Origin: Guptibacillus hwajinpoensis | Lineage (GTDB): Bacteria; Bacillota; Bacilli; Bacillales; Guptibacillaceae | Assembly (NCBI RefSeq): GCF_001039475.1 | Contig: NZ_LELK01000001.1 | Span: 1,514,819-1,578,818 of the forward strand | Length of the DNA: 64,000 nt | Direction of reading: 5' to 3' | Shown: positions 890 through 59,860 of the stretch, piece after piece | Layout: each line of letters opens with the position of its first letter | Position numbering within the stretch: the first letter of the stretch is position 1 | Made by a program: the position numbers and the translations under genes | Notes under the pieces: generated by a model | Seen by the model: only the letters and a program-made list of their open reading frames with translations | What the model was told of the DNA's origin: nothing | The model's database searches: none

Positions 890-2164
890 ATGAAAGCTCT
901 TCGTTTGATCTTCTTATTCGCCCTATTATTTCTCGTAACGTCGTGCAGTTTTCTAACGTCTTCCAATTCGTCTGAAGAAGTCGACGCCAAGAAAGAAACA
1001 GAGGACAAGCAGTCAAAATCGTCTAGTGAAATGAGCTCTTTGTTTCAAGAAGGAACATACAAATGGGAAGAGGATAACATGATTTTAGGAGCAATGGACA
1101 TCATCGAGCCGCAAGAAGGCTCATTTTCGTTCATTCTTCAGGCATATGATGGCCTAAATGTTGGAGAGCTGTCAGGTACAGCGGAAGTAGATGGCGACAC
1201 AGCGACGTTCACTGATCCCACTAATGAGAAGTGTAAAGCCACATTCGGTTGGCAACAAAATCAACTTGCAGTTGATACGAGTGAAGCCTGTCAAACGGAA
1301 GAGAACACCGTATCGTTCACAGGCATTTATACATTCATACAAATTGGTAAACAGGAAATATCAAATCCATCTGAGGCTGAGGAAACCACAGAAAGTAACG
1401 GATCCGATTGGCAGGAAGCTCTCTACATCGATGCTAGCTATGACCGAGGGAATCTCAGTATTTCAAACGTTTCAGAGGATTCTTTTCAGTTCAATTTTGA
1501 TATAAGCCATGCTGGTCAGGATGGTGAACTAACAGGAACTGCCGAAATCACTGGGGATGAAGCAACATTTCAGGATAAAGATGATCCAGCTTGTAAAGGA
1601 ACGTTTGCTCTTCTGAATAACGTTGTTACATTTAAAGAAGACTCCTGTATCAATTACCATGGTGCAGGAATAGAGTTTACAGGTAGCTTTACAATGACTG
1701 ACCAGAAACCTTTAACAACTACAAAACCAGATCCATCATGTACTGCTGCTCCATTTCATACTGAACTTCTGAAATTTGCGGAACAAGGTCATTTAAAAGA
1801 CTCTTCTGTTTTCCTGGGGATGACAGAAGATGAGTTGAAACAAGAGAAACCTTCCATGACGTATAACGAGGACCTTTATGAAGGGCTTCCTGGTTTCTTT
1901 GACAATAAATATACGTACTTAACTGTCGATCAAGAGGTCTTCAACCTACGTTATAATGCATTGTCAGAAGGTGAAGCTATTCCTTATTCCGATCTCGTTT
2001 GTCAGTTCGGTGAACCAGACGAAGTGATTTTCAATGAACTTGATAACGTCTATTTTCACGTCTATAACTCCGGAGAGAACAAGCTTTCCTTCGTTTCAGA
2101 TTCTAAAGAAGGCGACATTAAAGCCGTTCAGCTTGAATCGCAACGTAGTAAGTTAGCGCATTAA
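890..2164 (+). CDS. Lipoprotein with an internally duplicated beta-rich domain
   Basis: A 424-aa predicted lipoprotein with a hydrophobic signal peptide and a lipobox ending VTSC at about residue 19. A Ser/Glu/Lys-rich linker follows. Two related modules come next, at about residues 60-150 and 170-275; each has a G-E-L-[ST]-G-T-A-E turn, a following x-F-x-D-x-x-x-x-x-C-K-[AG]-T-F segment and a second Cys, suggesting one disulfide per repeat. A C-terminal region (about 285-424) contains an FLGMTEDEL motif reminiscent of extracellular bacterial modules. The start has a GGGAGG ribosome binding site. It is probably displayed on the outer face of the membrane. Function unknown; it is monocistronic and ends at a strong hairpin. 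Confidence 0.8.
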   Translation: MKALRLIFLFALLFLVTSCSFLTSSNSSEEVDAKKETEDKQSKSSSEMSSLFQEGTYKWEEDNMILGAMDIIEPQEGSFSFILQAYDGLNVGELSGTAEVDGDTATFTDPTNEKCKATFGWQQNQLAVDTSEACQTEENTVSFTGIYTFIQIGKQEISNPSEAEETTESNGSDWQEALYIDASYDRGNLSISNVSEDSFQFNFDISHAGQDGELTGTAEITGDEATFQDKDDPACKGTFALLNNVVTFKEDSCINYHGAGIEFTGSFTMTDQKPLTTTKPDPSCTAAPFHTELLKFAEQGHLKDSSVFLGMTEDELKQEKPSMTYNEDLYEGLPGFFDNKYTYLTVDQEVFNLRYNALSEGEAIPYSDLVCQFGEPDEVIFNELDNVYFHVYNSGENKLSFVSDSKEGDIKAVQLESQRSKLAH

Positions 2165-2170
2165 TTATCA

Positions 2171-2206
2171 GAAGAAGCCAGATGATAACCATCATCTGGC
2201 TTCTTC
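2171..2206. terminator. Bidirectional terminator
   Basis: A perfect 16-bp inverted repeat (2171-2186 and 2191-2206) with a 4-nt AACC loop lies between the convergent lipoprotein gene and the cell-wall subtilase gene. It can serve both strands, although the U-tracts are short. Confidence 0.8.
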
Positions 2207-2224
2207 TTTGTCATACGATTTACA

Positions 2225-5200
2225 CTATTCAACTAATGATTGCACTAGTTCATCTGATAAGGCAATCTTTCCACCAACAATGTAATATTTATCAGCAAAA
2301 GCGCCATACTTCGAAATTGTTTTCTTTGTTGTCGCCTGCGCTTGTGTCGCATGTGTTAAAAGAACTGGGGCTCCTTTAGATGCAGCTAAAGCAGATCCCG
2401 ATAGTGCGTCTGGATAATTACTTCCAGTAGCAATCAGAGGTGTTGCCATGTTCAGCTTACCTGCAAAGTAGTGAATCACGTTACTATTTGTTTCGTAGCG
2501 ATCGTTCCCGCTAATTCGCACGTATTTCCCAAGACTTTTCGCTACACTATTTGGTATTGCTGTTGTTCCCCCAATGACGAAAAACTCGTTCATCGAAGAT
2601 GTTTTCACATAGTTCCCTACCGAATCTGGAAGCGAACTTTTCTTTGTTAATAGAATTGGCATGTTAAGTGATGCCGCAATTGGGGCTATAGAAAGAGCAT
2701 CAGCAAAACCTGCTCCTGTTGTAACAACTGCCTTCTCAGATTTCCCTAGCTGTTTCGCAACATTAACAGACGTTTCATATCGATCACTTCCGCTAATTCG
2801 CTTAAATGTAATGCTAAGACTTTTCAGCTGTTTTTCAACATTCGTTGTAATTGCTGATTTACCACCTACTAGAATAACTTGCTCCACGCCAAGTCGATCG
2901 AGTTCCTTCATAACAGACTCTGGTAACGCATTCGTGTCTGTTAATAGGAGCGGTGCTTTGTTTCGATGAGCAAGTGGTGTTGCGCTAAGCGCATCTGGAT
3001 AATTTCGACCAGTGGCAATAACAGCAACGTTTGACTTTTTCCACCCTTTCTTCGAAACGTTCACTGCTGTTTCATAACGATTGGCACCTGAAATTCGCTC
3101 CATTGCCGCTTTCGTCCCATCTATAGCACGAACTGCACCAAATGCATCCAATCTCCCCCATCCGGAAACAAGATCGTATCCCGGAACTGGCTCCTCAAAC
3201 GGATAAGGCTCTTCCCCTTCATAGTAATACTCTTCATAATCACTGTAAGGATTATCTTGTTCATCAAAAACAACATCGATCGCTGTCTCAGTTAGAATCT
3301 CTTGTATTTCACCTGGTGTTAGTTCTGGTTTTTGTGAAAGTAATAATCCCGCAACAGCTGATACGTGAGGGGTAGCCATCGACGTTCCAGACATATAAGA
3401 AACATGACCATCAGGCATAATCGATGGAATATCTGTCCCAGGGGCTACTAAATCCAAGCCAGATCCATAATTTGAATAGTCCGAGACGATATCGAGACGA
3501 TTTGTTGCACCGACTGATATCGTATACTTTGAAGATGCTGGATAAGAAAGTTCCTCAAACCCATCATTTCCACTTGCTGCGATCACTGTTACACCGTGAT
3601 CGTTTGCATACTTTAGGGCATATTCAATTACGCGACTATAAGATCCCCCAAGGCTAAGGTTAATGACTTGAGCACCTTGATCTACTGCATATTTAATACC
3701 ATATGCAATCTGCTCGGTATCTCCAGATCCTGAAGCATCAAGCACTTTAACTGGCATAATCGTAGCATGTGAATTGAGTCCTGCCATTGAAAAATGGTTA
3801 TTAGCTTCGGCTGCTATAATTCCGGATACGTGAGTACCATGTCCATTGTCATCCATTGCATTCGAGCTTCGATCGATATAATTATAAGCGCTACTCGTAT
3901 CAACTGATGAGCTTAAGTCTGCTAACGTGTTATCAACACCTGTGTCGACAACGGCAATGACTGTGTTTTTCAACTTTTTTCCAATCATCCATTTTTGCAA
4001 CTCTTCGAATTGAACATCTACTCCACTCATTCCACCGTCACTGCCACTGTTATGAAGTGACCATTGATAAGAGTAGTGACGATCTTCAGTGAAAATAGAG
4101 TACTGTTGAACAGGTTCAACGAAATCCACTTGTGGAAGCTTCGAAATTTTATTTGAAGTAGTTTCAAGTGATTTTGCTGATGATTGATCCATTTCCATCA
4201 CATACATATTTGCAAACCCTGCTCCGTTCGCTTTAAGCGGGTCGATTGCATGAACACCATATGACTGTGCTTTTGAAGTAATACTTGAAACCTTCTGATC
4301 GTCCTTCAACTTCACAATCACACGATTACCAGCCTTTGGTGTTGCATAACCAGTATTTGTAAGAATAGACGAAATCGTTGATTGAGTTAGATTTGTAATT
4401 CCAACGCTCTTCGCAGTTGTTTGGATTTGCTTTTGAAGGAAAGCAGGTACAGAATCATGCGCTGTTTCATACAACCTGTTGATTGCATTTTGATCTTGCT
4501 GCGTCACTTTATACGTACTTGCACTTCCATGTTCAGCTACATCTCGGAATAAGTCCTTTAGTTGAACTAAGTCATGATAGACATTTTCTCTCATCGACTT
4601 ACTAAAAACCATTTTGGCACTAATAAACGGTGCACTCTTATAATAAAGCCCTGATAAATTCTTACCTTTGTCTGTTTGAGATAGAACGGTTTCACGTATC
4701 GTCCGAAGATCTTTGAGAATAACCTCACCATTCTCACGTTCATTCGTGCTAAGCTCTGCTGGACATTCTTCTGTCATAACATAATCTGATGGTGCAAGCG
4801 TAACACCGTCGTAAGATAAGGTATAGGCTCCGCTTATTTCACTTTCTATTTCCTCAAACTCTTCTCCACCATAGTGTTCAACCTTTATGTAATAAGGGCC
4901 GATCCATGCTAAAGGAAAATCGATCATTGCAGGTTCATTTTCAAATGAATATCCCATATAACGATCAAAAGCACGGTTGTCTACAGCATTCTCAAGGCTT
5001 GAGTAGACTGTAACGTTTAACTCCTGCTCTGACGTAAGCTTCATCCTGAAATGAGTATAGTCTTTAATATCTGATTCGGAAGGATGGACTACGTACCAGT
5101 GAACCTGCTCACTGTCATTAAAACTCCCTTCAATAGGGGTTGAACTTGTTAATGTGACCTCATTCTCTGGTACATTTCCAGTTGCACCCTGAACTTGTTT

Positions 5201-6744: not shown

Positions 6745-6860
6745 GAACCTTTTCGTAGACGTTGTTGCTTATAGATAAGTGGTTAATTTCCGCTCCAATT
6801 AGCGAAGTTTGGTTTTCTAAACAAAAACCTTTAAAAGCAACAATCTTTTAGTAAAGACCC
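6745..6860. mobile_element. MITE-like element, family A, core-deleted copy
   Basis: A 116-bp element in the 372-bp gap between the DUF1801 and M50 genes. Its ends are inverted repeats of about 24 bp (6745-6768 degraded, 6837-6860 well preserved), matching the ends of the elements at 42.7 and 59.7 kb. The flanks are TTAAATAA (6737-6744) and ATAAATAA (6861-6868), 7 of 8 bases identical, consistent with an old 8-bp target duplication. TTCCGCTCC occurs once (6788-6796) where the 42.7-kb copy carries it twice around a GC-rich core, so this copy lacks exactly that core. The rest of the gap shows nothing recognisable. Confidence 0.7.
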
Positions 6861-13686: not shown

Positions 13687-13796
13687 TTCTCATCTTTCAG
13701 GTATGCACCTGCTGGATTTGGCACAGTTCGTGATCGATCATCACATCCGTTGCCGAGGCTTCAAAGGGCCAGTCCCTCCACCTCTCTTGATAAGAA
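13687..13796 (-). ncRNA. SAM-I riboswitch (S-box) aptamer upstream of cysJ
   Basis: The minus strand carries the conserved S-box core in order: CTTATCAAGAGAGGTGGAGGG, GCCCTTTGAAGCCTCGGCAAC, GTGCCAAATCC, AGCAGGT, and ACCTGAAAGATGAGAAG. P1 closes between 13789-13796 and 13687-13694. With the following terminator this forms an off-switch: S-adenosylmethionine binding favours termination and lowers cysJ-cysI expression. In B. subtilis the S-box controls methionine, cysteine and sulfur genes; here it directly precedes sulfite reductase. Confidence 0.96.
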
Positions 13797-39015: not shown

Positions 39016-39054
39016 AAAAGAGCTTGGAGGCGAAGTGCCATTCCAAGCTCTTTT
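39016..39054 (+). terminator. Terminator of the TetR gene, overlapping a MITE end
   Basis: A 13-bp stem (39016-39028 and 39042-39054) ends in TTTT. Its right arm and the following bases (39046-39069) match the terminal repeat of the family A MITEs. Confidence 0.8.
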
Positions 39055-39069
39055 CTAAAAGACTGTTGC
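39046..39069. repeat. Solo terminal repeat of MITE family A
   Basis: These 24 bases match the family A terminal repeat at 42728 and 59657 at all but two positions. No second end is found within about 300 bp on either side. It looks like a relic, now forming the right arm of the TetR gene terminator. Confidence 0.65.
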
Positions 39070-39095
39070 TATTGCTTCCACATCAATTAGTTGTT

Positions 39096-42596: not shown

Positions 42597-42727
42597 ATAT
42601 TTCTACCTCGCAATTAGTTTAATTTTTAATCGATCACGTTTCACACTGTGCAGAAGTAATTTGTTAAGCCATTCTTCCTTTCTTGAAAACTGGTAGCTCA
42701 ATTACCCTGTTTGGTCTCAATTAATTA

Positions 42728-42925
42728 GGCTCTTTTCTAAAAGATTGTTGCTTTTAGAAGTATTCGTATTCTTTGTTGCTATACGGGTTAATTTCCGCTC
42801 CAGGATGCTCGCTTTCCGCGGGGCGGGCGGTGAGCCTCCTCGTCGCTAACGCTCCTGTGGGACCTGTCCCGCTAGTCCCGCAGGAGTCGAGCATCCTTCC
42901 GCTCCAATTAGCGAAGAAAAGAGCC
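42728..42925. mobile_element. MITE-like element, family A, with intact 8-bp target duplication
   Basis: A 198-bp non-coding element starting GGCTCTTTTCTAAAAGATTG and ending GAAAAGAGCC. It is flanked by exact 8-bp direct repeats ATTAATTA (42720-42727 and 42926-42933). The GC-rich core (42802-42896) is enclosed by 9-bp direct repeats TTCCGCTCC (42793-42801 and 42897-42905), and its ends GGATGCTCG/CGAGCATCC can pair. The right terminal repeat is shortened. The right copy of the target duplication contains the stop codon of the neighbouring 63-aa gene. No protein is encoded, so mobilisation would need a transposase elsewhere. Confidence 0.85.
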
Positions 42926-42930
42926 ATTAA

Positions 42931-43122
42931 TTAAAAGATAAATAAAATCAGTGCAATGATGTACATTAGAATATAGGCAACAGAACCTATCCTCCCGAAG
43001 GTTACAAAACAGCCCTTGTCTTCTCTTAAGACAATTAAATAGATGATACTCAGAACAACCATTAATATATACAAAGGCGAGACTGTAAGTAATGCAAATT
43101 CATTAGCCATATGTTCATTCAT
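42931..43122 (-). CDS. Small membrane protein next to a SUKH gene
   Basis: A 63-aa protein with two hydrophobic helices (about residues 11-29 and 45-63) separated by a short charged loop. The start overlaps the end of the SUKH gene, so translation is coupled. Its stop codon lies inside the target duplication of the MITE at 42728-42925, and the hydrophobic helix ends abruptly at the stop. Family not recognised. Confidence 0.6.
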   Translation of the reverse strand: MNEHMANEFALLTVSPLYILMVVLSIIYLIVLREDKGCFVTFGRIGSVAYILMYIIALILFIF

Positions 43123-43540
43123 CCTCTTCTACTTCTTCAGAGTACGAAATAACAAATTCTCTTAGGCTTGAAGCTATTTCTTCAAATCTTCCTGTTTCGT
43201 GGTACCAAATAAATATTTTGTTATCATACTCTCCACTAACATGCCTAAAGCATAACTTGTCCCCTGTTCCATCTTCGCCAATAAATATGAGCTCTGCTGG
43301 AATATCTTCATCTCTTAGCTCTATGTTTTGTCTTACTATGTCATCCCATGTTTTCTTTCTATTTTTAGCGTCTATTATTGGGAACAAAGTCCATTCACCA
43401 ACTTGAGCACAATTAGTCAGTTTAAAAAGTTCTTTGTACTGAGTTGGAAAGGTTACGCCTAATTTCTCTTCAGTTAAATGAATATCTAAGTCGGTAACTC
43501 CTAGTTTATTTGATTCAATTAAGTCAATGATGTCTCTCAT
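43115..43540 (-). CDS. SMI1/KNR4 (SUKH) domain protein
   Basis: A 141-aa acidic protein with the SUKH pattern: LGVTFPTQYKELFKLTN at the N-terminus, then a GEWTLFPI strand and an LIFIGEDGTGDKLCF strand pair ending in a DNKIFIWYHET segment. Many SUKH proteins are immunity proteins against contact-dependent or polymorphic toxins; others are housekeeping. The ATG at 43538-43540 with AGGGA upstream is preferred to the TTG three codons earlier. No toxin gene is next to it, so the immunity role is only inferred. Confidence 0.82.
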   Translation of the reverse strand: MRDIIDLIESNKLGVTDLDIHLTEEKLGVTFPTQYKELFKLTNCAQVGEWTLFPIIDAKNRKKTWDDIVRQNIELRDEDIPAELIFIGEDGTGDKLCFRHVSGEYDNKIFIWYHETGRFEEIASSLREFVISYSEEVEEDE

Positions 43541-59656: not shown

Positions 59657-59860
59657 GGCTCTTTTCTAAAAGATTGTTGCTTTTGAAACAAATAAAAAAC
59701 CACAATTAGCAGATTTGAGCGGAAGGATGCTCGACTCCTGCGGAACTAGCGGGACAGATGAGACCCCGCAGGAGCAACGAGGAGGCTCACCGCCCGGCCC
59801 ACGGAAAGCGGATAGGAGCGGAAATTAACCCACTCATGTAGCAACAATAAAAAAACTCTC
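59657..59860. mobile_element. MITE-like element, family A, full-core copy in reverse orientation
   Basis: About 204 bp. The left end at 59657 starts GGCTCTTTTCTAAAAGATTG, and the rest is the reverse complement of the 42.7-kb element: the GC-rich core (GGATGCTCGACTCCTGCGG, and GAGGAGGCTCACCGCCCGG) and GGAGCGGAAATTAACC. The right end is degraded (GCAACAATAAAAAAACTCTC), and no target duplication can be seen. It lies 13 bp upstream of the -35 of the MFS-TetR promoter. Confidence 0.78.

Follow-up and report, generated by a model that had tools for sequence, protein, structure and literature searches.

Bacterial MITEs, of which bcr1 of the B. cereus group, cited in PMC2267715, is an example, are in general short, non-coding, present in many copies and mostly intergenic. 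The element described here resembles them in all these respects but differs in having two distinct ends and a shared hairpin, and the likeness to bcr1 is one of kind. According to PMC8101967, IS1595 elements usually have 8-bp repeats as well as zinc-ribbon and DDE domains, and for ISApl4 PMC12561309 gives A/T-rich 8-bp repeats, mostly non-coding insertions and a circular intermediate. The Bhal-1 stem-loop family of B. halodurans, for which PMC2267715 gives 36 copies of 74 bp, is like our hairpin an intergenic stem-loop repeat of a Bacillaceae genome, the likeness being one of description. The main text of the RepRanger paper on REP sequences contains neither IS1595 nor MITE (PMC12306157). In the literature searched, which left most subscription papers outside its scope, no paper was recognisable as describing this MITE family or its hairpin module, and six hairpin strings of 14–18 bases had no occurrence.

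IS1595 elements on plasmids of Niallia sp. Man26, Cytobacillus solani and Priestia flexa, together with a truncated one in Paenibacillus tyrfis, share the 24-bp ends of the MITE at 17–24 of 24 positions and, like it, have AT-rich 8-bp target repeats. Unlike the MITE, they are 1.1–1.8 kb long and contain transposase sequence, in some cases with further genes. The hairpin was found in none of the 10 IS1595-type elements checked, and the MITE therefore did not arise from any of these by simple deletion. In Peribacillus sp. R9-11, IS1182-family elements share the hairpin module, at 75.8% identity to our copy, but have other ends and another transposase.

We conclude that the element is very probably a non-coding MITE with the ends of an IS1595 subgroup, moved most likely by an IS1595-type transposase in trans, whose interior is a conserved hairpin module. 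This reading corrects the likely mobilising family for a very abundant Bacillaceae repeat. The MITE itself is of a known kind; the less expected part is the hairpin common to several transposon families, which raises the question of whether the mobile elements of bacteria exchange non-coding parts in the way that they exchange passenger genes.

The window copy and its siblings

The window is the whole stretch of 64,000 nucleotides that was analysed (C14:1514819–1578818), from a genome of 4.26 Mb in 14 contigs. Within it, the MITE copy occupies positions 42728–42925 on the plus strand; the sequence, the ORF list and an inverted-repeat check define it as a 198-bp element without a gene, overlapped only by two mechanical frames, 53 and 57 aa long. 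The terminal inverted repeat, GGCTCTTTTCT/AGAAAAGAGCC, is perfect over 11 bp, and direct reading shows the same octamer, ATTAATTA, on the left at 42720–42727 and on the right at 42926–42933. The right octamer contains the reverse-strand TAA (42931–42933) of a 63-aa hydrophobic ORF (42931–43122, minus strand). The duplication preserved this stop codon, and the neighbouring ORF was therefore spared. The original prediction had described a 198-bp element with inverted ends, exact 8-bp direct repeats, no encoded protein and a stop codon within the right duplication, all of which we find; it overlooked the conserved hairpin of the interior and the rearranged pair of ends. Promoter and terminator scans over 42600–43150 returned nothing, and there was no match among 50,697 phage records.

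Alignment to other members of the family shows a typical order of right end, hairpin and left end. The window copy instead begins with a left-type terminal repeat, GGCTCTTTTCTAAAAGATTGTTGC (42728–42751, plus strand; in full agreement with the 24-base left-end pattern), followed at 42763–42786 (plus strand) by a remnant that aligns with the inner part of the right-type end of typical copies and lacks the outer bases, a presumed rearrangement joint. The hairpin module follows at 42787–42908 (plus strand), and the copy closes with a left-type end reduced to its final 11 bp (42915–42925, minus strand), all that is left of the right terminal repeat, with the left-type base at position 11. Judged by this alignment, the window copy is a rearranged variant. 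A second copy, L012, starts with a left-like end in such an arrangement but is decayed. Since the target repeat is exact, either the window copy inserted in rearranged form or the rearrangement happened in place; the truncated right end is presumably a product of that rearrangement.

Related copies had been placed at 6.7, 39.0 and 59.7 kb of the window. The one at 6745–6860 (minus strand) is complete, a 116-bp sibling without most of the hairpin and with one mismatch in its target repeat. The one at 59657–59847 (plus strand) is partial: its left end has no mismatch and its hairpin lies at 59713–59847 (minus strand), but the right end is unrecognisable, and neither it nor a target repeat was found. 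At 39046–39073 (plus strand) the end scan detects a lone left-type end, for which no partner end was found. Elsewhere in the window, positions 13687–13796 (minus strand) match the SAM riboswitch (RF00162); nothing else in the window reaches an Rfam gathering score.

The ends are abundant in the genome. A 20-base left-type end gives 173 matches at ≤3 mismatches against 1 for a reversed-pattern control, and a 24-base right-type end gives 148 against 0; the terminal 10-mer alone is weak (8 matches at ≤1 mismatch, 5.05 expected). Among the matches listed, exact ends occur in many named genera. We collected 295 distinct ends from 162 fetched loci and the window, and paired those facing each other at 60–420 bp, each end being used once. 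This yielded 105 distinct sibling pairs, 100 of them left/right, three right/right, one left/left and one ambiguous; the window copy is absent from the set, as the 24-base scan does not pick up so short a right end. The flanking 8-mers of the pairs agree at all eight positions in 36, at seven in 23, at six in 11, at five in 16 and at four or fewer in 19. Agreement at no fewer than seven positions (59 of 105 pairs) falls to 0–2 pairs when the flanks are shifted outward by 1–20 bases, and to a mean of 4.1 with a maximum of 10 when partners are shuffled.

The target repeats tend towards TTWWWWAA (61 pairs, some sharing an end), and some copies are inserted in the end of another copy, with TTTCTAAA of that end as the target (L013 and L039). 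Copies measure 210–240 bp (42), 150–170 bp (32), 100–125 bp (19) or other lengths (12), and the size classes differ by the amount of hairpin retained. Identity between nearest siblings does not exceed 97.3% (median 89.8%; 101 of 105 compared), and recent activity is therefore not evident. At two further loci of this genome (L010, C7:224662–225230; L161, C7:304657–305177), three hairpin copies lie in tandem at a spacing of about 200 bp; these arrays seem to have arisen by tandem duplication of decayed MITE copies.

Evidence of movement comes from the relative G003, of which 400 kb were fetched and 11 sites aligned. Three of these are clean empty sites. Where our genome has a 221-bp copy (L020), the orthologous site holds a single TTTAACAA; where it has a 154-bp copy (L103), a single TATTTAAA; and the site of a 109-bp copy (L119) is empty, with seven of eight target bases. 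Seven other sites are ambiguous and one, L026, is occupied in both genomes. This last (L026 1446–1670) is an orthologous insertion shared by the two genomes, with the shorter hairpin in G003, and the pair suggests that size classes can arise through in-place deletion. Of 52 insertion points, nine fall within an ORF of ≥300 nt, compared with 699 of 1040 positions drawn at random from the same flanks; the 52 are those that passed target-repeat and flank-length filters, out of a list of 115 pairs that includes the window copy and some pairs sharing ends.

The window copy is short and carries no transposase gene, and it and its siblings have inverted ends and target repeats of fixed length. The original prediction had proposed a genome search with the terminal sequence and the flanking 8-mers, and its interpretation as a MITE is borne out by consistent ends and 8-bp repeats in the 105 pairs and by the empty sites of siblings. 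The empty site it had called for exists in a relative for the three siblings but not for the window copy, whose right flank matched in two of 14 other genomes, neither match reaching the junction.

The hairpin module and its carriers

Three lines of evidence define the module at 42787–42908: its borders in four other carriers, its covariation and its distribution. Of the 150 Bacillales genomes sampled, 85 contain matches to the query 42787–42912 at E ≤1e-4, many of them several, with at most five candidates scored per genome. In other genomes the module is bordered by GTTGATT...AATCAAC. When 30 copies, one from each of 30 genomes, are aligned, they support one long hairpin in which 97.1% of cells are paired. 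Changes on both sides occur in 13 of 40 pairs, against 3.2 in shuffles and 2–7 in slid versions, and the covariation of 0.103 compares with 0.047 for shuffles and at most 0.038 for slid versions; none of 500 shuffles was as good.

For a survey of carriers in other genomes, 85 loci were reduced to 69 distinct sites by dropping 16 that repeated the same site. Type-1, IS1595-like ends flank the hairpin on both sides at 12 sites, seven of them with ≤1 mismatch in the target repeat, and a second end type, GGCTCTGTTAAA...TGTTGA, is present at five, all with ≤1 repeat mismatch. One end is found at 13 sites and none at 39. Two longer IS1595-family elements (L364 and L366) have the second end type.

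The hairpin also occurs with IS1182. Two plasmids of Peribacillus sp. R9-11 each bear a copy of an IS1182-family element (98.7% identical to one another over 1921–3683) in which the hairpin separates the left end from the annotated transposase gene. In three other genomes (G115, G042 and G137) hairpins lie near C-terminal fragments of IS1182. The G115 fragment scores 9e-26 against the IS1182 model, short of the whole-protein cut-off, and passes Pfam DDE_Tnp_1_6. Compared with a type-2 MITE and three IS1182-type carriers, the window copy gives one match to each, all covering exactly 42787–42908, at 75.8–85.8% identity. Different carriers therefore contain the hairpin with identical borders.

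In both R9-11 plasmids (L475, pA; L476, pB), the IS1182-family copies adjoin terminator-like palindromes near 1921 and 3683. In L476 the palindrome flanks the element on both sides, resembling a long target duplication.

How the hairpin relates to its carriers can be read in several ways. The covariation across 30 genomes is what would be expected if a conserved RNA gene or regulatory hairpin were the functional unit, the ends being incidental and no transposon being involved, but we consider this highly improbable. Target repeats and empty sites demonstrate movement, and copies without most of the hairpin have target repeats as well, one of them, the 109-bp copy, with an empty site. Furthermore, the orientation of copies relative to neighbouring ORFs shows no clear bias (12/10/9/5 in four classes among 36 copies, a count that took in copies without the hairpin, oriented by their ends), and no Rfam family reaches its gathering score on the element: four matches in 42700–42960 are weak and fall far short. 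REP-like palindromes, whose partner transposase is RAYT, offer another comparison, as the module likewise combines a conserved hairpin with many copies. An independently mobile element of this kind, inserting as a unit into MITEs and insertion sequences, would account for the same borders in four other carriers with unrelated flanks and for the 39 of 69 sites without an IS1595-type end. It is nevertheless unlikely, as the demonstrated target repeats and empty sites belong to whole elements and none to the module alone, and at several end-less sites the flanks resemble decayed type-1 carriers or IS1182. The module might alternatively be a part of IS1182-family elements, located beside the transposase gene, that was captured once by an IS1595-type MITE and spread with it. 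The arrangement in R9-11 and the C-terminal fragments in G115, G042 and G137 agree with such a capture, which we regard as possible though doubtful: the side of the transposase sequence on which the module lies varies between IS1182 lineages, and the module is present in two IS1595-type end classes. A bolder reading, which we consider somewhat less likely than not, is that the hairpin of about 130 bp may be an order-wide, exchangeable module of mobile DNA that passes as a unit between unrelated transposons (two classes of IS1595-type MITE and IS1182, with a position as transposase leader in one lineage). Its fold would be kept by selection, and as DNA or leader RNA it might aid persistence of the element, either by insulating or damping transposase expression or by aiding transposition.

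The mobilising family

Seven elements with IS1595-type transposase sequence have ends that agree with those of the MITE at 17–24 of 24 positions, together with 8-bp repeats, whereas IS1595 elements of another end type reach 15–18 of 24 (two scored). Among the matches listed when genome contigs were scanned for the degenerate end, we found a 1118-bp element of Paenibacillus tyrfis whose left end agrees at 24 of 24 positions and whose right end agrees at 22 of 24, flanked by an exact repeat, TTATTTTA. It contains a CopZ-like gene and a short ORF that scores above threshold (40.8 bits) with the model of the IS1/IS1595 N-terminal zinc domain; a zinc-domain model of IS256 type comes close at 40.4 bits, and the ORF matches no Pfam family. 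The ORF matches 78 plasmid records, of which we fetched four from Bacillaceae. All four elements have such ends (17–21 of 24). Their 8-bp repeats are exact in three and contain a single mismatch in the fourth, and two of the elements contain annotated IS1595 transposases.

In relatives, 15 IS1595 loci gave end pairs in five cases and none in 10; four of the five are of another end type, and the fifth, in G019, is of the MITE type. This 1612-bp element, with one mismatch in the repeat, encodes a transposase of 335 aa that passes the Pfam threshold for DDE_Tnp_IS1595, its zinc ribbon falling just short; the zinc ribbons of L365 and L381 are below the Pfam cut-off. A genome of the window's own genus (G006) holds a remnant, a transposase fragment adjoining an end that agrees at 22 of 24 positions.

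The longer insertion sequence with matching ends that the original prediction had suggested looking for exists as IS1595-type elements, though none was found in the same genome. The IS1595 DDE domain (PF12762) has no match in our genome, G003 or G011, and a weak stretch of 29% identity, interrupted by stops, is the closest sequence in our genome to an IS1595 helper, which is therefore missing or lost. An autonomous IS1595 element would be recognised by a transposase with a zinc ribbon and DDE_Tnp_IS1595; here the element has no gene and the genome no PF12762. We file it, from its ends, as putatively IS1595-dependent and not as an IS1595 insertion sequence.

We infer trans-mobilisation by IS1595 from the comparison of ends. 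In the mechanism that we propose, the two 24-bp ends (GGCTCTTTTC-6 bases-ATTGTTGC) are those of an IS1595-family subgroup, and an IS1595-type transposase acting in trans would move the MITE, mostly into intergenic DNA, at AT-rich 8-mers with the TTWWWWAA trend, duplicating 8 bp. Rather than residual transposase sequence, the interior is a hairpin module that has borders of its own and was acquired from, or is common to, other mobile elements.

The original prediction had named ISL3 as the mobilising family, on the grounds of ends that start with GG and AT-rich 8-bp duplications. The guess was reasonable, since most Bacillales ISL3 elements start with GGCTCT or GGTTCT and they duplicate 8 bp (paired ends were obtained at 4 of 30 loci). 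The 24-base ends differ, however: beyond about six bases the similarity fades, and four delimited ISL3 elements agree with the MITE at 9–14 of 24 positions. The ISL3 transposase (PF01610), present in 22 of 61 genomes, has no match in our own genome (G000), G003, G011 or G001, which of 15 genomes of the family have the most left ends. We have rejected an ISL3 helper on these two counts and consider mobilisation by ISL3 extremely improbable, with an IS1595-type transposase as our preferred candidate. Across the genomes searched, the presence of neither ISL3 nor IS1595 tracks copy number.

One candidate for an autonomous copy, of 1455 bp in L041, was rejected. Its longest frame resembles a formyltetrahydrofolate deformylase and no transposase, and the pairing of its ends looks accidental. 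Extra genes are present within the IS1595-type borders of L239 (2582–3699), L380 (2338–4023) and L381 (2294–4058), where they include a CopZ-like iron-sulfur metallochaperone, a hypothetical protein and a DinB-family protein.
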